A stretch of DNA of 26,055 nt from a virus. A model generated the notes under the pieces. That model was given only the letters and a program-made list of their open reading frames with translations, did not search any database and was not told the DNA's origin. Position numbers and translations under genes: made by a program. Positions 14,235-23,498 of the stretch are shown here, piece by piece (positions within the stretch are counted from its first letter, which is position 1; each line of letters starts with the position of its first letter). The stretch lies in IMG/VR virus record IMGVR_UViG_3300025120_000473, positions 1-26,055 of that record; one strand, 5' to 3'.

Positions 14235-14385
14235 CTTCCGCTCCTTCTACGGGCAAGTAGACTAAGTAGAAGGCTTCGCAGTTAGGGCAGGATAGGTTAG
14301 ACTCGATGAAGGACTTACCGTCATCATCTTCCTGATCATGGTCGCCCCCCCAGATAAGTTCGTGCCTGCAATGCCAACAGTTCAT
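14227..14385 (-). CDS. 52-aa zinc-ribbon protein
   Basis: The ATG at 14385 overlaps the polymerase stop as ATGA. The product begins MNCWHCRHELIWGGDHDQED and ends EGAEDV. C3-x2-C6 and C33-x2-C36 (LSCPNCEAFY) form a zinc-ribbon pair flanking an acidic loop with GGDHD. The opening 'MNCWHC.HELIWGGDHD' is familiar from many phage-encoded small zinc proteins next to replication genes, so I am confident it is real. The biochemical role of that family is not established. It is coupled to both neighbours, by a 4-nt overlap upstream and an 8-nt overlap downstream. Confidence 0.85.
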   Translation of the reverse strand: MNCWHCRHELIWGGDHDQEDDDGKSFIESNLSCPNCEAFYLVYLPVEGAEDV

Positions 14386-16304
14386 TCTACTTCTCCCCAG
14401 TTATCGACCAGTGCTGTGTCTACCTCGAACGGAATGTTTAGGTTTGGTACACAGGTGGTCATGATTTCAGATATCCGTTCGGCCTGTTCCTTGTTTTCTA
14501 TATTAAAGCACAGTTCATCATGCACTGTCAGCATCGGAGTTAGTCCCTCTGCATAGCAGTCCACCATCGCCTTCTTTGTCTGGTCGGCACTCGAACCTTG
14601 GATCAGCCTGTTCAAAGCCTTGTATGTAAAGGCACGTTTGATTGCCGCCTTTCCGCCATATTCTTTTGCCGCCTGCTCTAATGGCATAGCCTTGCTGTAG
14701 CCGTATGACTTAGGTTGCCACATATTGAAGCGACACTTCCGTCCCAGCCACGTTCTGATATGCCCAACCTCTTCTGCTCTACGCATAGTCATGTCAGCCA
14801 TACCCTTAACGAACGGCACCCTGTCGTGATACTTAGCAAGAAGGTGAGTAGCTTCCTCATCTGTGATATCCATCACACCTGCAAGCTTGGCTTTACCCAT
14901 GCCATACATGATACCAAGGTTGACAGTCTTAGCCTGCTTACGAGAAATACCTGCGATGTCTGCAACCATTTGGTGAAAGTCAGCATCGCCATCATGGTAC
15001 ATCTGCACCACGCCATCAATCTGTGGGTGACGGTGTACGCCTTTTAATGTAGAACAGTAGTGAGCAAGCCAGCGTGGTTCTTGTGACGCATAGTCGAATG
15101 AACCCCACTTGCATCCCTCTTCTGGTATGAACAGCCCACGGATCATAGCTTTGATCTCCGGGTCCCGTGCCGGAATCTGCTGCAGGTTCGGGTTGCTTGA
15201 AGAAAATCTACCCGTTACAGTGCCACCCTCGTCGGAACGCAAAGGATTAAAGTCACAATGGATACGCCCCTTATGAGAGTGCTCAAGAATAGTTTCGATA
15301 AAGGTTGTGTTGGCCTTGTTAAACTCTCTAATCTTTACAATCTTCTGCGCCAGAGGATTGTCATGGTTCGCAAGAAACTGTTTTGTAAAGGCGGGAACCC
15401 CAGTCTTCTCTGTCCTATCATAAGACAACCCGACGGCATCAAACGCCTTTGCTATAGATGTGGCGACCCACGGTTCAATAGTTACACCCGTTTCTTTCCG
15501 CACATCCTCCGTTAATTCTTTCTCTCGGCGCAGTAATTCTGTCCGCGCCTGCTCTGCTTTATCGATGTCAACTCGCACACCATTCGTCTTCATGTCCAGG
15601 AGCACAGGCATCAGGCTTGACTCAAGCTGGAATATACCAGTGCATTCATCCTTGACCATGTCAGCGCGTAACCTGTCCCAAAGTCTCAAGGTAACAGCGG
15701 CATCCTGTTCTGCATATGCCCCGACTAAGTGAGACGGTAGCCGCCACATGCCTCCCTTTGGGTCCACACCAAAGGCAGACGCCGCCGCTTTTAAAATCTT
15801 CTCATCCTTACGCTCACCCAGATACTCACGAGCCAAAGAGTCTAGGTTGTAATACATCCGGTTCTCGTTCAACAGCGGCGCGGCTATCATGGTATCGACT
15901 ATCGGACCTTGAACCTCGATTCCTGCCCAACGTAACCAGCCAAGGTCATACATCGCATTGTGCATGACCTTCTCAATGTGAGGTGTCTCCATCTGTTTCT
16001 TCAGCCAAGTAAAGACTTTCTTCTGTGAGAAGTTCTCGCCGCTCTCATGCCGGATAGGAAAGTACCCTTGGAAATCTCCAGCCGCAACAGCTACTCCAAT
16101 GATATAGCCATCATCTCTACACCAGCCCGGCCCCAATGTCTTGAGGTTTGGGTCCCGTGTCTCAAGGTCAATGGCGATGCGCTCTTGCCCAGTAAGGTCA
16201 GGGAAAGATGATGGTGGAACCCATTGCTTTTCCGTTCCTTGGATAGCAGCGTCTTTCATGTCTAAATCTAGGATGTCCATTTGATAGCTCTCACTCATTA
16301 TCAT
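14382..16304 (-). CDS. polA: Family A DNA polymerase with 3'-5' exonuclease
   Basis: This 640-aa replicative polymerase has an exonuclease domain at about residues 40-215: Exo I IAIDLETR (D46, E48), Exo II HNAMYDLGWL (D120) and Exo III YAEQD (Y197, D201). In the polymerase domain, motif A is FDYASQEPR (D404, E409). Motif B is RKQAKTVNLGIMYG (R455, K459, L463, Y467) and motif C is VHDE (H595, D596, E597). There is no 5'-3' exonuclease domain, as is usual for phage PolA. L463 sits where E. coli Pol I has Phe762. The start may be 16304 or the in-frame ATG at 16298; both overlap or abut the previous gene. It is the core enzyme of the leftward replication operon. Confidence 0.96.
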   Translation of the reverse strand: MIMSESYQMDILDLDMKDAAIQGTEKQWVPPSSFPDLTGQERIAIDLETRDPNLKTLGPGWCRDDGYIIGVAVAAGDFQGYFPIRHESGENFSQKKVFTWLKKQMETPHIEKVMHNAMYDLGWLRWAGIEVQGPIVDTMIAAPLLNENRMYYNLDSLAREYLGERKDEKILKAAASAFGVDPKGGMWRLPSHLVGAYAEQDAAVTLRLWDRLRADMVKDECTGIFQLESSLMPVLLDMKTNGVRVDIDKAEQARTELLRREKELTEDVRKETGVTIEPWVATSIAKAFDAVGLSYDRTEKTGVPAFTKQFLANHDNPLAQKIVKIREFNKANTTFIETILEHSHKGRIHCDFNPLRSDEGGTVTGRFSSSNPNLQQIPARDPEIKAMIRGLFIPEEGCKWGSFDYASQEPRWLAHYCSTLKGVHRHPQIDGVVQMYHDGDADFHQMVADIAGISRKQAKTVNLGIMYGMGKAKLAGVMDITDEEATHLLAKYHDRVPFVKGMADMTMRRAEEVGHIRTWLGRKCRFNMWQPKSYGYSKAMPLEQAAKEYGGKAAIKRAFTYKALNRLIQGSSADQTKKAMVDCYAEGLTPMLTVHDELCFNIENKEQAERISEIMTTCVPNLNIPFEVDTALVDNWGEVE

Positions 16305-16563
16305 TTATGATCTCGCCGCCCAATGCAGCGTATCCAATGATATCAACCCACGAGTCATCCTTGGTTATGTCTTCTGCCAGTCGTGCCAACTTGACACCAA
16401 TCATACATGCCGCCACCTGTTCTGCAGTCACCGCCCTGTTAAGTATAACACTCCATATAGTAGCGATACGCTCATGGTTAAACTTAGCCGGTCCATAGTC
16501 CTTGGCTCTCGGACCATTGATTAACTCTGCGGCGGTGTCAATAAAATGCTGTCGGTCTTTCAT
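16291..16563 (-). CDS. DUF6378-like phage protein
   Basis: This 90-aa protein contains AKDYGPAKFNHERIATIWSV, TAEQVAACMIGVKLARLAED and DDSWVDIIGYAALGGEI. This order, 'YG....N.ERIA.iW...', 'vTaeqVa..M...K.aRL', 'DswvDi.GYaAl..E', is the pattern of the small phage family DUF6378. The fold is helical with conserved His/Glu/Asp, reminiscent of small nucleotide-pyrophosphohydrolase-like helical proteins. That enzymatic idea is my inference only. It overlaps the UvrD-like gene by 4 nt (ATGA) and the polymerase gene by up to 14 nt, so it is made with the replisome. Confidence 0.8.
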   Translation of the reverse strand: MKDRQHFIDTAAELINGPRAKDYGPAKFNHERIATIWSVILNRAVTAEQVAACMIGVKLARLAEDITKDDSWVDIIGYAALGGEIINDNE

Positions 16564-18074
16564 ATTTTAAATCCATACATTGATTGTGATTCGATAATGT
16601 GCAGTGCTTTCTTGGCACGAGTAGCCCCGACGTAGAACGTCCGTATCTCGGAGTCCTGATCAGGGCTTTCTGCACATGGCTTGGAGGAGTCTAGTAGTAG
16701 GGCGACGTTATCCGCTTCTCCACCCTTTGCTTTGTGGATCGTCGATATCTTGATCCTCGGCTTGTTCGTCAGAATCTTCTCGCCCATCCGTCTCACTGAG
16801 GAAATATATATTCTCTCCCTCTCTGAAACTTTGAGCGCATCGTACCACGGCATCTCGGCGGAGACGTTCGTAGTAAAGTTCTCTCTTATGCTTTCTAGAT
16901 TGTAGGTTAGTTCGTTGTCGAGCGTGGCAAGCTTCTTCCTTCCAAACTTGGTCACGATATCCGACTTTAATAATGTAGAGAGAATCCTCAATTCCTTCGC
17001 GGAGAGATATATTCCTTTGCATAGCTTTAGCCAAACCTCAATTCCAGTTAATACATTTGGTGAGATAGACCAACCGGAACCTTCACGCCAGAACAGGTAA
17101 CCCTGCTCTTTGAGATCTGTTGCAATCTTGTTCGCGATGTAATTAGTTCTAGCAAGGATAAGCCACTCGCCGTTGGTTAGGTCTAGACCAAGCATATCAT
17201 GATGCCAAACTACAACTCCAGCCTCGTCTTTGGGCATCCATACCTTTTCCTGCCGGGTACCCAGTTGACTTACCATACTGTCCGCGACGTTATAAATATT
17301 TCTAGGAAGACGATATGATTTATGCAGAATTGTTTTATTATCTGATGCGTTAAGGAAGTCCTTCACATCCACACCCATCCAAGAATAGATACACTGATCA
17401 TCATCACCAGCAAAGTAAACCCGCTTGGCCCGTGGCTTCATCACATCGTGTATCATCTTCCACTGCATAGGTGCTAGGTCCTGTGCCTCATCAACAATAA
17501 GCACATCAAGCAAGGGGGAATCCCCCTCGTCTATGAACCTCTCAATCATATCTACAAAGTCTAGCTTACCCGTATCTTTCTTGTAGTCGAACAGTGCTTT
17601 GTTCACTACCTTCAACTGCTGAAAGTAAAGCCTTCTGTCGTTAGCATCGCTGAACTGCTGCTCAAGACTAACGCCGCGCACCCGTGCTAACTGTATCAAA
17701 GACAGATATGCATCACCTCCTTTGCCGGGGCTAAACAAGTTGCCATCAGCCATAGTAACAGAAGAGTTGGAAGAAAACTCTAGGCCCAGCACCTTACCCA
17801 ACTGATTATAGTCGGAGCCCTTTAGAACCTGATTGGTACTAAGACCTAAGTTCTGAAACGCGAAGCTATGTAAGGTGCGGAACCATACCATCTGGTCCGA
17901 GCCCATGTTTAGAGCCGCCGCTGAACGGTCACGCGCTTCCTCCGCCGCCTTACGGCTGAAGGATACGAACGCAATGTTCTCAGGCTTAGTTCCGTTATCA
18001 AGCTCCTGCTTAACAATATTAATAAGCGTTGTTGTTTTGCCCGTTCCTGGGGGACCGAAGATAGTTGTCTGCAT
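16560..18074 (-). CDS. UvrD/Rep-like SF1 DNA helicase
   Basis: This 504-aa ATP-driven DNA translocase shows these motifs: I GPPGTGKT (7-14), Ia-like AFVSFSRKAAEEA, II VLIVDEAQD (191-199), III GDDDQCIYSW (223-232), IV YRLPRN (254-259), V STIHKAKGGEADNV (444-457) and VI RTFYVGATRAKKAL (478-491). It is shorter than cellular UvrD (about 720 aa), so accessory 1B/2B parts are reduced. The start codon shares a base with the primase stop (TAATG), linking it to primase translation. With no DnaB-like helicase visible in the window, it is a candidate fork or accessory helicase. Roles in recombination or repair are equally possible. Confidence 0.93.
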   Translation of the reverse strand: MQTTIFGPPGTGKTTTLINIVKQELDNGTKPENIAFVSFSRKAAEEARDRSAAALNMGSDQMVWFRTLHSFAFQNLGLSTNQVLKGSDYNQLGKVLGLEFSSNSSVTMADGNLFSPGKGGDAYLSLIQLARVRGVSLEQQFSDANDRRLYFQQLKVVNKALFDYKKDTGKLDFVDMIERFIDEGDSPLLDVLIVDEAQDLAPMQWKMIHDVMKPRAKRVYFAGDDDQCIYSWMGVDVKDFLNASDNKTILHKSYRLPRNIYNVADSMVSQLGTRQEKVWMPKDEAGVVVWHHDMLGLDLTNGEWLILARTNYIANKIATDLKEQGYLFWREGSGWSISPNVLTGIEVWLKLCKGIYLSAKELRILSTLLKSDIVTKFGRKKLATLDNELTYNLESIRENFTTNVSAEMPWYDALKVSERERIYISSVRRMGEKILTNKPRIKISTIHKAKGGEADNVALLLDSSKPCAESPDQDSEIRTFYVGATRAKKALHIIESQSMYGFKI

Positions 18075-19606
18075 TAGAACGGCACCTCACTTTCAATCTC
18101 GATACCCGGAACTTGGACCTCGGAACTGAAGGATGGAACCCACCAGACACGCATCTCTTTTCTTGTTCCAGATGTTGTCTCAAATCTCTTCTTACCATTA
18201 GCTACATTACTGCCATTAAGTTCTTTCAACCGCTCCTGTATCTGACCTCGGCTATAGCTGTCAAACTTCTGACCTCTCAGGAACCTAATCAAAGACTCAA
18301 TCTTAAAGTATGTAAGACCTTCGTCATCGTCTGTAAAAGGCTTGCCAATAGATATCTCTTCTGCTGACTGAGCCTGCACCCTGCCATCACAGTAAGACTC
18401 AAGAAGGTCCATGAACTGACCCTTGTATGTTAGTTCTTCTGGCACCTCTATCTCACTCATGTCCTGCATCATTACGCCAACAAGCTCTTGCCAGTCGCCT
18501 ACCTTCTGCAGTGGCGGCATCACATGTATCTGTTCCATGCAAGCCTTTTGAAACTTCTGCGGTGTTTGTAAGTCATCAGTTGTAAGTTCAACCCGTTGAC
18601 CAGCCACATCACAGAACCAAACGGGAGGCTCTGACTTGACAACACACAAACCTGTTATGTCTACATGAGCAACATGGCTACCTATACCAAACTTCTTTGT
18701 CTTACACAGGCTCTTGTTGCAGAAAGACTTCAGCGGTTCCTGTTCACACGGGAACCCATACTCTTTCTTCTCGTGCTGAGACTGTATGACAACGATCTCA
18801 GAAGCTGGCAAAGGTGGTGAAGCATACTTGTTGTTGATTTCTTCAAGGCGTTCTTTCCACTTCTCTGGTTGTTCTTTCTTACAGCCCACCGCCGCCGCAA
18901 ACATCACAGTATTCCGGGTCCCTTCGGGTATGCCTTGTGCAAACATGCATGACAGGCATGGGGACCAGTCAGCGAACTCATCAACAGGCTCACCAAATGT
19001 CAGGTCAGTGAAAGCTTTGGGAGTTACTCTACGTTCTTCTACTAGGTCTAAGAACTCTGTCAGGTCTGCTTCTTCGCCGTTGGCGAGAAGTGCATAGCGC
19101 ATCGTCTGTTCCGAATCAAAGTACGGAAGGTTAATAAAGTTGCCAACATCACCGCGCTCGACAAGAATCTCTTCTTGCTTCGGGAATATCTCACAGCCAC
19201 CGTACCCCAGATACGATGCAATCTCTGATGCTTTATCACGAAACACTCCTGCACTCATGTACTCTGTAAAGAAAAAATATATGTGTGCGCCGCCTGACTT
19301 AGACCGACAGGTAACACATGGTATGTCTAGGCCCTGTAACTTCTTATCTAAAGCAACAAGGTCTAACGGATACTGGTCAATGTCTAGTGCCCCGAACCTA
19401 CACTTGTTTTCTTCATTGATTGGGATAGAACCCACCCCGCTTTTACCTTCGAGGTGAGAGACAATTAATTCTATAGTGAGAGGTTTACGAACGATGAAAG
19501 ATTTAGCCTTTTGCTTACCGGCCCGTCTCTCTTCTGATATTTGTGTCTGTCCATGTGCCGCACTGAACCCCTCAAATGCAGCCATGAACCGTGTAGCTTG
19601 GTTCAT
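18074..19606 (-). CDS. Archaeo-eukaryotic-type (AEP) primase/primase-polymerase
   Basis: This 510-aa protein has the AEP catalytic core: metal-binding FGALDIDQY (D75, D77), SKSGGAHIYFF (S104, H108), then CEIFPKQ (E139) and GNFINLPYF. This matches the TOTE-type or plasmid/phage prim-pol subgroup. A linker with EGTRNTVMFAAAVGCKK resembles the PriCT helical region. Cysteines at 217/220 (SPCLSC) and at 287, 296 and 301 (PCEQEPLKSFCNKSLCKTKK) may bind zinc. The C-terminal region is helical and ends IESEVPF, resembling an SSB C-terminal tip. It should make primers for the polymerase. It has no fused helicase domain; the separate UvrD-like gene follows immediately. Confidence 0.88.
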   Translation of the reverse strand: MNQATRFMAAFEGFSAAHGQTQISEERRAGKQKAKSFIVRKPLTIELIVSHLEGKSGVGSIPINEENKCRFGALDIDQYPLDLVALDKKLQGLDIPCVTCRSKSGGAHIYFFFTEYMSAGVFRDKASEIASYLGYGGCEIFPKQEEILVERGDVGNFINLPYFDSEQTMRYALLANGEEADLTEFLDLVEERRVTPKAFTDLTFGEPVDEFADWSPCLSCMFAQGIPEGTRNTVMFAAAVGCKKEQPEKWKERLEEINNKYASPPLPASEIVVIQSQHEKKEYGFPCEQEPLKSFCNKSLCKTKKFGIGSHVAHVDITGLCVVKSEPPVWFCDVAGQRVELTTDDLQTPQKFQKACMEQIHVMPPLQKVGDWQELVGVMMQDMSEIEVPEELTYKGQFMDLLESYCDGRVQAQSAEEISIGKPFTDDDEGLTYFKIESLIRFLRGQKFDSYSRGQIQERLKELNGSNVANGKKRFETTSGTRKEMRVWWVPSFSSEVQVPGIEIESEVPF

Positions 19607-19673: not shown

Positions 19674-20468
19674 TTAAAACGGCACGTCGTCTGCATCAGA
19701 TGGATTAGCTGAACTCATCTCATCTGAAGTAGCGGCGCTGGTTTTAATCTCACCTGCTTGGAAGTCATTGTACATCTGCTTTGCTTCTTGAAGCACAGCC
19801 ATTGGCACATCAGTCATCTCAGCTTGAGCGACTGCGAAGTTGAACCACGAACCTTTGTCGTTGGACTCTTGAACAGTGCTCAGTGTCCACGGCGTTGCCC
19901 ATGTTGGAGGGTTAAACAATCCCTTGGTTGGGTGCATAACCTTCAACCCAGCCCGTCTTGTGTTCCACTGCTTAGACACTTTCATCTGTGTCTTCTTCAT
20001 GTCGCACACCAACTGGCTGGTCAAGCCATCTTCATTGTATGCAAGCACAAGGTACTGAGCCGAACGCACTAGCTCGTTGCCACTGGGTAGCATTTCAAAT
20101 GGACCGTTGCGTGTGGTCTGACGGATGTCAGGGCTGTTTGGATCTATTTCACCCATGAACCCGCCGCCGCTTTCACGAAGGCCGAACTCAAGGAACTTAG
20201 TCTGAAAGGCACAGACTAAAACCTTAACACCTGTGTCAGCTTCCCAGTATTCCCCGGTCACTGTGTTAAAGATGTCACCTGCTGACGCGCCCTTAATAAA
20301 CTTAGGGTCCGTCTTCAAAAGCTGTGGTGATAGCGGCTGAAGGATCCGCAAGAATGGTATCTGCATATCCTCTGCACCGATAGCCTCACGACCTTGCCCT
20401 GCCGCCTCAAACAAATCATCCATGATGTTTGCTACTGCTGTGCTTTCTTTTTTTGCTACTGCTTCCAT
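19674..20468 (-). CDS. Putative single-stranded DNA-binding protein
   Basis: This 264-aa protein has a central beta-rich region (about residues 60-215, including GVKVLVCAFQTKFLEFGL and QYLVLAYNEDGLTSQLVC). It then has an unstructured Ser/Asp/Ala tail ending SDADDVPF. An acidic tail ending in a hydrophobic Pro-Phe is the hallmark of bacterial SSB (E. coli ends DDDIPF) and is functionally similar to the acidic, Phe-ended tail of T7 gp2.5. It lies immediately upstream of primase in the same operon, as an SSB would. No canonical OB-fold motif can be read by eye, so the call rests on tail, size and context. Confidence 0.6.
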   Translation of the reverse strand: MEAVAKKESTAVANIMDDLFEAAGQGREAIGAEDMQIPFLRILQPLSPQLLKTDPKFIKGASAGDIFNTVTGEYWEADTGVKVLVCAFQTKFLEFGLRESGGGFMGEIDPNSPDIRQTTRNGPFEMLPSGNELVRSAQYLVLAYNEDGLTSQLVCDMKKTQMKVSKQWNTRRAGLKVMHPTKGLFNPPTWATPWTLSTVQESNDKGSWFNFAVAQAEMTDVPMAVLQEAKQMYNDFQAGEIKTSAATSDEMSSANPSDADDVPF

Positions 20469-20473
20469 AGTCT

Positions 20474-21040
20474 CTAGCTCCTAGTAATTTTAGCTTCGGT
20501 CCCCACAAAGATACCGAATGTGTTAAAGTCAATTTCCTTGCCGCTTTCAATACGGCCCTTGGCCCATGCCTTCAAAGTCTGTGCGTGAATGTGTGTCTTC
20601 TGCGCAGGCTCCAGACCATACTGCCCTCGTAGATCTTCTACTACAGCACTAGCCATGTTGTCCTCACCAGACTTGAATGAGATGGTCACATCATTCTTAA
20701 TGATGTCGCCCTCACCAATAGAACGTAGCCAAGTATAAGCCTCGTCCCTCTTCTCATCTGGGATACGCGCATGAACGAACTGCCGGAGCGCAACCTTGTT
20801 GCCATCGACGGTAACAGAATCCATGCCCATCTCCTGCATCAGGTTGGGGATATCATCCTCGTTCACTTTTCTTTTCTTGAATTTTAAATCCTTGAGATAC
20901 TGCTCGGCTTGAGCAATCTCATCATCAATCTTCTTTGACTCACGGATCAAATGAGACAGGCGGGAGCCTGTATCAGTAGTTACTTTGTCGAACTTATCGG
21001 CATCGACTTCCTCATCAAATAGCGAAAACACATCGCTCAT
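20474..21040 (-). CDS. Coiled-coil replication-operon protein of unknown function
   Basis: This 188-aa acidic protein has a clear N-terminal charged coiled coil (about residues 27-60, ESKKIDDEIAQAEQYLKDLK then FKKRKVNEDDIP). A compact alpha/beta part follows, with MGMDSVTVDGNKVALRQFVH and KSGEDNMASAVVEDLRGQYG. It is the first gene after a promoter candidate, with AGGAG six bases before its ATG, and lies only 5 bases upstream of the ssb-like gene. Proteins of this layout recur beside phage ssb genes. Possible roles are replisome scaffold or host-nucleoid interference, but nothing in the sequence decides. Confidence 0.6.
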   Translation of the reverse strand: MSDVFSLFDEEVDADKFDKVTTDTGSRLSHLIRESKKIDDEIAQAEQYLKDLKFKKRKVNEDDIPNLMQEMGMDSVTVDGNKVALRQFVHARIPDEKRDEAYTWLRSIGEGDIIKNDVTISFKSGEDNMASAVVEDLRGQYGLEPAQKTHIHAQTLKAWAKGRIESGKEIDFNTFGIFVGTEAKITRS

Positions 21041-21119: not shown

Positions 21120-21287
21120 TTACTTTTTTGTACGCCCGTTATAAAACCTTTTGTTAGACGGAGCAAGGGTGAGCCTACTCAGCCTGTGCTTGTCCACTGG
21201 GGCCTTCGGGTCTATCCGACGCGTTCGCTCTGTAATTCTAGCAAGGTCCAGCTTAAACTCTTCTATTGTCATAGTGATGCTGTTCAT
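21120..21287 (-). CDS. 55-aa small basic protein of unknown function
   Basis: The reading frame from ATG 21287 gives MNSITMTIEEFKLDLARITE followed by RTRRIDPKAPVDKHRLSRL and a basic end NGRTKK. An earlier in-frame start (21350) would lie inside the RHH gene and is less likely. The alternative ATG at 21272 (MTIEEF) is possible. An acidic N-terminal helix followed by an Arg/Lys-rich half suggests RNA- or DNA-contacting character, but no family is recognised. It follows the RHH regulator stop by one base, so the two are presumably co-transcribed. Confidence 0.5.
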   Translation of the reverse strand: MNSITMTIEEFKLDLARITERTRRIDPKAPVDKHRLSRLTLAPSNKRFYNGRTKK

Positions 21288-21288
21288 C

Positions 21289-21435
21289 TTAGGCCGCTGT
21301 CTTTTCTGCCACGCTTTGCTTAACAATATGGGCCAACTGTTTGCTAACACTTCTGTCGCTAGCCTCTGCCTGCTTCCGAAGCATGTTATATATTTCTACC
21401 GATACAGCTATCGACTTCCATTTAGATGTGTCCAC
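21289..21435 (-). CDS. Ribbon-helix-helix transcriptional regulator (GTG start)
   Basis: A GTG at 21435, with AAGGA seven bases upstream, opens 48 codons to TAA at 21289. The product begins MDTSKWKSIAVSVEIYNMLR, reading the GTG as fMet. The fold signature is clear: a strand (KWKSIAVS), helix A (VEIYNMLRKQAEAS), a turn (DRS) and helix B (VSKQLAHIVKQSVAEK), as in Arc/MetJ/CopG-type repressors and antitoxins. It should bind DNA as a dimer or tetramer. It is the first gene after a promoter overlapped by a dyad, the usual position of an autoregulated repressor, and is divergent from the nuclease gene at 21508. Confidence 0.8.
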   Translation of the reverse strand: MDTSKWKSIAVSVEIYNMLRKQAEASDRSVSKQLAHIVKQSVAEKTAA

Positions 21436-21507: not shown

Positions 21508-22059
21508 ATGAGACCAGCACATCAGGTTCGTGATGGTAAAAGATCTGAACTCATTGCCGCCGCTTGGCTTGTGTCTCAAGACTGCTATGTCTACTCCCCT
21601 TTCATCGAGCAAGGCCCGATAGACTTGATTGCATTAGCTCCCAACGGGGAGATGTTCCTGTTCGATGTGAAAACTGCGGGTCGCAGAAAGGATGGCTCCA
21701 TAATCTCCCGAATGTTAAAGCCCATTCAATTAAAACTGGGCGTCCGTCTTCTGTATGTGGACCTTGAAACAAACACCTGTGCTTTGTACCCACACCAGCT
21801 ATCCCGCAACCCAAATAACAACGCCTCCAAGTATGCGGAACAGAAGACATCTAATCGTCACTTTTCCGGGGGTCCAGTTCCAACCATTGACGAGCTTCTT
21901 CTCCAAGGGTCTTCGCAGACAAGTCGATCTTATCCCGAAGAGTCTTCACTATATGAACATCAACTGTCCCCTTCGACACCAGATCCACATAGGTCACCGA
22001 ATGCTTCTGACCTATTCGATGAGCGCGATCCTCAGACTGAACCCTCGTCTCAAGATTAA
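21508..22059 (+). CDS. PD-(D/E)XK nuclease-like protein with antisense-overlapping tail
   Basis: This 183-aa protein has GKRSELIAAAWLVSQDCYVY (E14), GPIDLIAL (D39) and MFLFDVKTAG (D53, K55). This is the E...PID...DxK layout of small PD-(D/E)XK endonucleases (Holliday-resolvase/restriction-like, often annotated group I intron endonuclease-like). The core ends near residue 100. The rest is a Ser/Pro/Arg-rich, probably disordered tail. Residues about 115-183 are encoded opposite the last 69 codons of the SNF2-like gene. It is the only rightward gene in the right half. AGGGGG about 11 bases before ATG may serve as ribosome site. A role in DNA processing, host-DNA degradation or defence is open. 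Confidence 0.75.
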   Translation: MRPAHQVRDGKRSELIAAAWLVSQDCYVYSPFIEQGPIDLIALAPNGEMFLFDVKTAGRRKDGSIISRMLKPIQLKLGVRLLYVDLETNTCALYPHQLSRNPNNNASKYAEQKTSNRHFSGGPVPTIDELLLQGSSQTSRSYPEESSLYEHQLSPSTPDPHRSPNASDLFDERDPQTEPSSQD

Positions 22060-23305
22060 AGTCATTGGCGTAGTAGATTACATTAGTCGCCGCCGTTAGT
22101 GTCAGGCCATAGCCTGCTGTCTGTGGGTTAGCAACAAAGAACCTAGCATCCTCGAACTGAAATCTTCTGACCGCTGTCTGCCTGTCATCATCACTGGTGT
22201 CCCCATAATATGTGACCACGGAACTCGGACCATGAACCTTGGCTAGTTCAGCCTCAATCTTCTTGATGTCATAGCGGAACCGTGACCAGATGATTACCTT
22301 GCCGGACATCTCCTGCACTGTGTCCAGAATGGCATCGATACGCCGAGTCGGAAACTCTACTAGCTCACCATCATCTGTCATGATGTGTCCACACAGTACC
22401 TGTTGAAGGCGGAGCAGTTGTGTCATCACAGCCGGAGCAGACACTAGCTGACCGTCATCGAGTAAAGCAATCGCAGCACTTTTCAATGAACTGTAATACT
22501 GCAACTGTTCTTTTGATAACCCCACCTCACGGACAGTATAAATCTTTTCCGGTAGGTCCAGTGCATCTTCTTTAGTCACACGATACGAAAAGTAGTTCAG
22601 CTTAGTTGATAGCTCGTCTAGGTTACGATAGCCCACAACCTGCTGGAAGCTGTGCGAACCCATGCGCTGAGTGCGTGTGATAGCGTACCTCCCCTGAAAG
22701 GAGTAGTAGCTGTCGAAGCCGAGCAACTCCTTGTCCATGAATCCACACTGGGCGTACAAATCCATAGGCGATTTAGTAACGGGCGAGCCGGTAAGGATAC
22801 GCTTGAACGATGCGCCTTGACCAACTGCAACCAAAGCTTTAGTCCGCTTGGCCTTTGGGTTCTTAATAGTCGTGCTCTCATCAACCGCAAGTAAGAAAGC
22901 CGAACCTTGTGTAAATAGATCCATGTATTTCTTAACCTTGGCTGTTGCGAAACCTTCCACATTGACCAGTAAGATGCGGAGCTTTTCACGCTGACCAACC
23001 CCTGCGGATAGGTGCTCCCGCTGATTCTTCTTTGGGTTTGGATTCCAAACATAGACCTCGTGATCAACGTCTTCAGGCAGGTGCGCCGGTATTTCTGATA
23101 TCTCCCAGTTGCGATAGACTCCCTTGGGGGCGACAACAATAGCGGTGTCAATCTTCTTGTTCTCATAGAGCCAAGTGATGTTATCAATAAGGACCTTCGA
23201 TTTACCACACCCCATCTCCATAAAGTACCCATAGTTCTTCTTGTCATAAGACTTCTCCAGTGCCACGCGCTGATGCTCGTATGGTTCTGTTCTATACTTA
23301 AACAT
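21851..23305 (-). CDS. SNF2-like SF2 helicase / DNA translocase
   Basis: This 484-aa protein starts at ATG 23305, chosen over the in-frame ATG at 23335 because GGTGGGGAAG precedes it and it makes the 8-nt overlap seen elsewhere. Motifs are Q-like EPYEHQ (7-12), I MGCGKS (31-36), Ia VVAPKGVYRNW, II VDESTTIKN (DEST instead of DEAH, 142-145), III LTGSP (171-175), V GLTLTAATNVIYY and VI QSEDRAHRIGQ (423-433). This is the SNF2 signature. It probably translocates on duplex DNA during replication, recombination or protein displacement. No fused nuclease domain is present. The separate PD-(D/E)XK gene converges on its 3' end with a 209-bp antisense overlap. Confidence 0.9.
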   Translation of the reverse strand: MFKYRTEPYEHQRVALEKSYDKKNYGYFMEMGCGKSKVLIDNITWLYENKKIDTAIVVAPKGVYRNWEISEIPAHLPEDVDHEVYVWNPNPKKNQREHLSAGVGQREKLRILLVNVEGFATAKVKKYMDLFTQGSAFLLAVDESTTIKNPKAKRTKALVAVGQGASFKRILTGSPVTKSPMDLYAQCGFMDKELLGFDSYYSFQGRYAITRTQRMGSHSFQQVVGYRNLDELSTKLNYFSYRVTKEDALDLPEKIYTVREVGLSKEQLQYYSSLKSAAIALLDDGQLVSAPAVMTQLLRLQQVLCGHIMTDDGELVEFPTRRIDAILDTVQEMSGKVIIWSRFRYDIKKIEAELAKVHGPSSVVTYYGDTSDDDRQTAVRRFQFEDARFFVANPQTAGYGLTLTAATNVIYYANDFNLETRVQSEDRAHRIGQKHSVTYVDLVSKGTVDVHIVKTLRDKIDLSAKTLGEEARQWLELDPRKSDD

Positions 23306-23498
23306 CTTCCCCACCTTTCTTGACAAACGGAACAATATTATCCCTTGTCATCTCCTGCAACAGTCCAGTTATTATCTCCTCACCCAAAGCACTGAACCCC
23401 ATGATTAACTCAACAGCTTCTTTTAAGTTGATATCGCCATCACAATACTGGTCACACACTGTTAGATAAGTGTCAGTTGTATTCTCCATCGTCTTCAT
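23298..23498 (-). CDS. 66-aa small protein upstream of SNF2 gene
   Basis: A short, mostly helical acidic protein: MKTMENTTDTYLTVCDQYCD, then INLKEAVELIMGFSALGEEI and an end VKKGGEDV. GGAGG five bases before ATG 23498 favours this start over the second Met. It overlaps the 82-aa gene by 26 nt and the SNF2 gene by 8 nt (ATGTTTAA), so its translation probably feeds the helicase. No family is recognised. Confidence 0.65.
   Translation of the reverse strand: MKTMENTTDTYLTVCDQYCDGDINLKEAVELIMGFSALGEEIITGLLQEMTRDNIVPFVKKGGEDV

Follow-up and report, generated by a model that had tools for sequence, protein, structure and literature searches.

A phage nuclease gene converging on a SNF2 helicase gene probably combines a short dual-coding C terminus with a tolerated stop-loss extension

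A predicted nuclease gene and a SNF2 helicase gene overlap tail to tail by 209 bp in the window, the 26,055-nucleotide stretch of viral DNA analysed here (IMG/VR record IMGVR_UViG_3300025120_000473, positions 1 to 26,055). With good confidence, we explain this overlap by two parts, an obligate, short dual-coding C terminus and a tolerated stop-loss extension that is kept open and hydrophilic. In this model, the nuclease gene, which is phage-specific and of PD-(D/E)XK type, would converge on the 3′ end of the adjoining helicase gene. The final ~17 codons of its fold would face the final ~15 codons of the helicase, with both proteins depending on this stretch. Past this motif, the nuclease frame would run on until helicase codons happen to supply an antisense stop, usually at Val463–Lys464, giving overlaps of 86–98 bp. 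Several lineages, including that of the window, would have lost this optional stop, letting the frame run on, in most of them to a stop at Phe426–Asn427, for up to 209 bp. The remaining ~150 bp would form a fast-evolving, predicted disordered tail with no detectable required sequence, kept open and hydrophilic and most likely translated; a hydrophobic or sticky tail would presumably harm the nuclease. Two lineages appear to have got free of this conflict: in one, the nuclease gene was reversed next to the helicase, with the motif kept and the tail dropped, and in the other the nuclease was lost.

The features of the two genes lie in the window as follows.

21508–22059, + strand: PD-(D/E)XK-like nuclease ORF, 183 aa, with candidate catalytic residues E14, D39, D53 and K55
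21508–21846, + strand: nuclease residues 1–113, before the overlap (fold core 1–98 and variable linker 99–113, from AlphaFold and clade identity)
21847–21900, + strand: nuclease residues 114–131, motif (S)NR-F-GG--PTID-LL, in the overlap from 21851, putatively dual coding
21851–22059, both strands: convergent coding overlap, 209 bp common to both ORFs
21851–23335, − strand: SNF2-family DNA helicase ORF (Pfam SNF2-rel_dom and Helicase_C, PHROG 62)
21901–21945, + strand: nuclease residues 132–146, tail common to all convergent relatives, predicted disordered from 134
21946–21948, + strand: position at which the nuclease of short-overlap relatives stops (antisense of the helicase Val463–Lys464 junction), a sense codon, TCA, in the window
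21946–22056, + strand: nuclease residues 147–183, long tail of long-overlap lineages only, predicted disordered and hydrophilic
22057–22059, + strand: nuclease stop TAA, forced by helicase Phe426–Asn427

The C-terminal 69 of the 183 nuclease codons, in an ORF that starts with ATG, share the overlap with residues 426–494 and the stop of the 494-residue helicase, including its Helicase_C domain and motif VI (RAHRIGQ, residues 437–443, positions 22007–22027). The first-pass annotation had placed the overlap exactly, and its reading that motif VI and the helicase C terminus are covered is borne out. The phase is 123:132 (naming per PMC2174442), in which the first codon positions oppose each other and the third positions oppose the other gene's second, so that almost no change is silent in both frames. 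The identity of the helicase is secure. Its translation more likely starts at an ATG near 23305 than at the TTG at 23335, given that the alignments of most relatives begin only at residues 9–12.

The nuclease ORF most likely encodes a PD-(D/E)XK-type enzyme with predicted activity, as indicated by family matches, fold matches and four invariant residues. All 46 aligned relatives match phrog_5018 and 17 of the 46 weakly match Pfam PDDEXK_5; the window nuclease itself has no significant Pfam match. E14, D39, D53 and K55 are invariant across the 46, with catalytic roles assigned by analogy. An AlphaFold model built on the 46-row alignment is confident to about residue 131 (pLDDT mostly 77–94 per block for residues 1–113), places helices at 105–118 and 127–131, and falls below 50 for residues 134–183. 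The best matches of this model in a Foldseek search of the PDB include the homing endonuclease I-Ssp6803I (2ost, E 3e-4) and, among other structures, Hjc resolvases (E 2.5e-3), with modest TM-scores for a query that includes the disordered tail. The protein thus resembles known PD-(D/E)XK nucleases (I-Ssp6803I, Hjc-type folds, PDDEXK_5) in fold and in its conserved catalytic-type pattern, but is found only in these phages in the collections searched. No match was returned by a PDB sequence search or by tblastn of the window nuclease against phage records, and no relatives were found in bacterial genomes; a codirectional relative used as the query gave only weak partial matches to phage records. 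The phage collection searched contains no isolate from exactly the window's clade. Since these three sources hold no solved or named close relative, we continue to infer the role of the nuclease.

Scans of IMG/VR with the nuclease and helicase yielded 283 usable helicase loci on metagenomic contigs, dereplicated to 73, from a phage family that is largely aquatic. All convergent relatives overlap, at discrete lengths only, which are 209, 197 or 185 bp for long overlaps and 116, 98, 95 or 86 bp for short ones (83–209 bp overall, the 83-bp case, L179, being set aside for an apparent frameshift in its helicase). The 12-bp differences among these lengths reflect helicases that end four codons earlier. 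Orthologues are shorter than the 183-residue window nuclease at the 3′ end, as expected of a 3′ extension, with 140–151 residues in short-overlap relatives and about 129–140 in codirectional ones. In the codirectional relatives (e.g., L030, L043, L051), the nuclease gene follows the helicase downstream on the same strand and does not overlap it; the freed nuclease retains NRRFNG--P--LDEVI, lacks the tail and terminates three residues after this motif. Some relatives carry other genes at the nuclease site. The pair behaves as a true convergent pair, in that both ORFs belong to conserved families, the overlap is conserved in relatives and codon choice is constrained by the opposite gene. It does not behave as an overprinted de novo gene, since only the C-terminal codons overlap and the core is an older fold.

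These relatives settle several points raised by the first-pass annotation. A sequencing error or point mutation that removed the true nuclease stop from this contig is almost certainly not the explanation. Of the long overlaps in annotated prokaryote genomes, most have been judged artefacts, among them 124 of 178 convergent ones (PMC2478687), but here the identical 209-bp overlap recurs in 41 distinct sequences from many metagenomes, and every convergent relative overlaps by at least 83 bp. Nucleases that stop before the helicase end, named there as counter-evidence, do exist, but only where the nuclease gene has been turned round. The comparison of homologues it proposed shows a conserved C-terminal motif and a variable long tail that is missing in short-overlap, codirectional and nuclease-less relatives.

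The positions at which the nuclease frame can end are set by helicase codons. In this phase, each nuclease codon draws on two helicase codons, taking the first base from one and the third and second bases from its predecessor. An antisense stop arises wherever xTT, xCT or xTC in the helicase precedes a codon with A as its first base. At Val463–Lys464 this happens when valine is GTT or GTC, as in 22/22 capable short-overlap sequences and also in 10/10 capable nuclease-free or codirectional sequences; valine 463 is GTG or GTA in all 18 members of the window clade. At Phe426–Asn427, TTY-AAY always gives an antisense TAA or TGA, and because every codon choice there yields a stop, 209 bp is a hard limit. 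Within the overlap of the window clade, 4/4 fully capable stop junctions are stop-free, compared with 10/46 upstream.

Codon choice in the relatives argues that the first ~50 bp of the overlap is genuine, functional dual coding. Helicase Leu485, which must be TTR for nuclease Thr126, is TTR in 53/56 convergent sequences versus 0/11 released ones, codon 489 is xCC (nuclease Gly121) in 55/56 versus 0/11, and Glu479 is GAA in 56/56 versus 7/11, although these are related sequences, so that Fisher and Mann–Whitney p values overstate independence and the released state stands for roughly two events. The first base of codon 490 is C in 55/56 convergent versus 4/11 released sequences, and therefore even a helicase amino acid is affected (Arg rather than Lys). 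Helicase codons opposite the motif are thus frozen only when overlapped. In the window clade, synonymous change opposite the motif is reduced (P 0.011, parsimony counts), and no upstream 11-codon window matches the same-codon fraction of this zone, the only one with significant synonymous conservation; the footprint is weaker in the short-overlap group. Nuclease identity within the window clade is 0.85 for the core, 0.81 for the motif, 0.53 for the linker and 0.62 for the tail. The first-pass view that the nuclease core is complete before the overlap is therefore wrong by ~17 residues, because the last ~17 residues of the folded domain, with N116, R117, G121, T126, L130 and L131 inside the overlap, are conserved, predicted folded and kept in non-overlapping relatives. 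Its description of a tail overprinted on conserved helicase codons fits the Ser/Pro-rich part, but not the first ~50 bp, which would encode the folded end of the nuclease.

Beyond the motif, openness of the frame exceeds chance only marginally in the window sequence considered singly. When helicase codons are redrawn according to upstream usage, 5% of trials keep the full stretch of 67 antisense codons open, and other antisense open runs of 57–90 codons are present in the same helicase gene. Across relatives, openness strongly exceeds chance. The frame is open over helicase residues 428–494 in 18/18 dereplicated members of the window clade, while 0/1,044 equal-length upstream windows (348 positions × 3 antisense frames) are open in even 14/18. 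In short-overlap relatives, where the same zone is no longer read, 62% of sequences contain stops.

The tail is most distinctive in its composition. The nuclease second base is the complement of the helicase third base, and A-ending helicase codons therefore mostly give hydrophobic nuclease residues. In the window clade, the fraction of A-ending codons is 0.28 upstream, 0.13 in 428–462 and 0.08 in 463–478; no upstream 35-codon window is as low as 428–462, and past the nuclease stop, in codons 391–425, the depletion ends (0.32). In 428–462, short-overlap, nuclease-less and codirectional relatives have 0.20–0.25 A-ending codons. Short-overlap relatives show a fall only in 463–478 (0.07), the part still translated, and nuclease-less and codirectional relatives show a clear reduction in neither segment. 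The antisense hydrophobic fraction of 428–462 is 0.13–0.20 in the five long lineages versus 0.22–0.35 expected, about half of expectation in four of these five independent lineages and lower than expectation in the fifth, and 0.27–0.29 versus 0.29–0.31 expected where untranslated. One exception is the 116-bp clade, in which low hydrophobicity continues beyond the present stop; its sister is long, which suggests that this clade may have been truncated recently. Because the depletion of hydrophobic-coding helicase codons reaches roughly to the end of the nuclease frame in each lineage, the tail is probably translated. Ser/Pro richness was rejected as a sign of function: the untranslated antisense frame of short-overlap, nuclease-less and codirectional relatives is also S/P-rich (0.27–0.29 vs 0.33), making it mostly a by-product, and only the hydrophobic depletion discriminates.

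In a tree built from the part of the helicase upstream of the overlap, convergent short-overlap sequences stand at the base and long overlaps occur in at least four or five places, namely the window clade (18), L087/L142/L144, L173/L176, L049 and the 185-bp clade. L135, a short-overlap sequence on a long branch, joins the window clade at its base. Codirectional and nuclease-less lineages both fall within an 18-row clade (SH-aLRT 99) deep among convergent sequences, with an all-convergent clade disfavoured (AU p 0.03), and in a tree of the nuclease core the codirectional nucleases are nested in a 13-row convergent clade (99). As codirectional sequences are nested among convergent ones in both trees, the nuclease was probably turned round once, and the motif is taken as retained after that event. 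A codirectional ancestor was rejected for the same placement, although tree support is not absolute (AU p 0.03), and a codirectional-first polarity appears less likely. The long tail looks dispensable, because it was gained repeatedly and is missing from the freed nuclease.

It is unlikely, in our view, that the long tail is functional, a disordered nuclease arm that binds, for example, the helicase or DNA and is open clade-wide because it is selected for its sequence. Such an arm would fit the clade-wide open frame, the hydrophilic composition of all five long lineages, the partly conserved end DPxTE--SQD, and a same-codon fraction in the tail zone of 0.67 versus 0.54 upstream. However, about 19–20% of upstream windows (about 19% of control windows) reach that level of conservation, tail residues are far less identical than those of the core or motif despite the highly conserved helicase residues behind them, and short-overlap, codirectional and nuclease-less relatives manage without the tail. 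Synonymous changes in the long-tail zone, at 2.49 versus about 3.2 per codon, are only mildly reduced (P 0.15, parsimony counts), and strong sequence-specific selection on the tail was rejected on this basis. We infer that selection keeps the tail open and soluble rather than acting for a particular sequence. In a related scenario, a functional disordered arm was born each time a single optional antisense stop within a conserved helicase gene disappeared, and selection then preserved it; this is still a minority reading. If true, helicase codon choice would be part of nuclease function, and several independent births in one phage family would amount to natural replicates of how protein sequence can arise by extension into an antisense frame.

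At the other extreme, the tail could be a neutral run-on, an open stretch left by chance, unselected and perhaps untranslated. The 5% chance of an open frame in a single window, given the helicase protein and codon usage, and the lack of a significant excess of synonymous conservation would allow this, but clade-wide openness would be unexpected of an untranslated or unselected tail, as would a depletion of hydrophobic codons that tracks the extent of the nuclease frame in each class; we regard it as quite improbable. We are similarly doubtful that convergent transcription, or antisense pairing of the nuclease mRNA with the helicase operon, is what is selected and the coding overlap a by-product. 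Since the nuclease gene sits on the + strand amid a series of − strand replication genes, any transcription reading through leftward would yield RNA antisense to the entire nuclease mRNA, and no terminator-like site was found between the two genes, where promoter and terminator scan counts are no different from shuffles. Such regulation predicts neither codon footprints of nuclease residues nor hydrophobic depletion, however, and relatives with the nuclease turned round or absent persist.

Long overlaps in prokaryotes are usually misannotations, although some convergent ones were judged possibly real (PMC2478687), and among convergent phases 123:132 is the most frequent, chiefly in overlaps shorter than about 50 bp and to a lesser degree in longer ones (PMC2174442). 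The phage pair resembles these long convergent pairs in orientation, phase and 3′ extension after stop loss, but is conserved across a diverse clade at discrete lengths and comes with natural controls, the turned-round and lost nucleases, so that the dual-coding motif can be separated from the extension. The rarity in phages proposed by the first-pass annotation is relative only: antisense overlaps >50 nt are uncommon, yet not exceptional, in tailed phages (84/1,079 siphovirus, 82/544 myovirus and 21/347 podovirus reference genomes; PMC7017920). De novo overlapping viral proteins tend to be disordered (PMC8227390, citing Willis and Masel 2018). The overprinted segments described there are, like the phage tail, predicted disordered C-terminal segments from an alternative frame of an older conserved gene; compared with that account, the phage case extends an existing enzyme rather than creating a new gene, and its hydrophilicity follows a scarcity of A-ending helicase codons that is confined to the translated part. 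In human cells, C-terminal extensions created by stop loss lower protein level when hydrophobic (PMC11502859), and the phage tail is alike in that stop loss adds a tail, with hydrophobic tails harmful and hydrophilic ones tolerated. It differs in being read antisense to a conserved gene, where harm from hydrophobic tails is only presumed.

For most long antisense overlaps, a single genome does not suffice to judge whether they are real, and here the relatives serve as controls. One tree with short, long, turned-round and absent states separates the dual-coding end from the tolerated run-on tail. The codon-level footprint, in which hydrophobic-coding complements are avoided, tracks how far the opposite frame is translated, and could serve to judge, from sequence alone, whether other antisense extensions are translated.

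Several neighbouring genes were noted. A 48-aa ORF with a GTG start at 21289–21435 (−; MDTSKWKSIAVSVEIYNMLRKQAEASDRSVSKQLAHIVKQ...) looks like a ribbon-helix-helix DNA-binding protein and, being divergent from the nuclease gene, could regulate it; similar ORFs lie between the helicase and the gp33-like gene in L033, L045 and L078. At 21120–21287 (−), a probable 55-aa gene (MNSITMTIEEFKLDLARITERTRRIDPK...) adjoins the gp33-like gene. Two genes at 19674–21040 (−) match the Pam3 phage gp34-like (PF23977) and gp33-like (DUF7307) families, and this region resembles the replication block of Pseudanabaena phage Pam3. Further along, 14382–19606 (−) holds a primase matching AEP-TOTE (PF22548) and phrog_21866, then a UvrD-like helicase and a family A DNA polymerase. 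The site between the helicase and gp33-like genes seems to be a variable cassette site. In one nuclease-less relative (L086:6450-6803), the gene at the nuclease site reads like a SET-domain protein (..GVGVIATQDISRGSIIEE..YNHGSDPNAEW..). In Pelagibacter phage HTVC023P (L090:1440-1477), the gene for gp85, of unknown function, meets a related SNF2 helicase gene convergently and overlaps it by 38 bp, so that such overlaps at the end of this helicase may have more than one origin.
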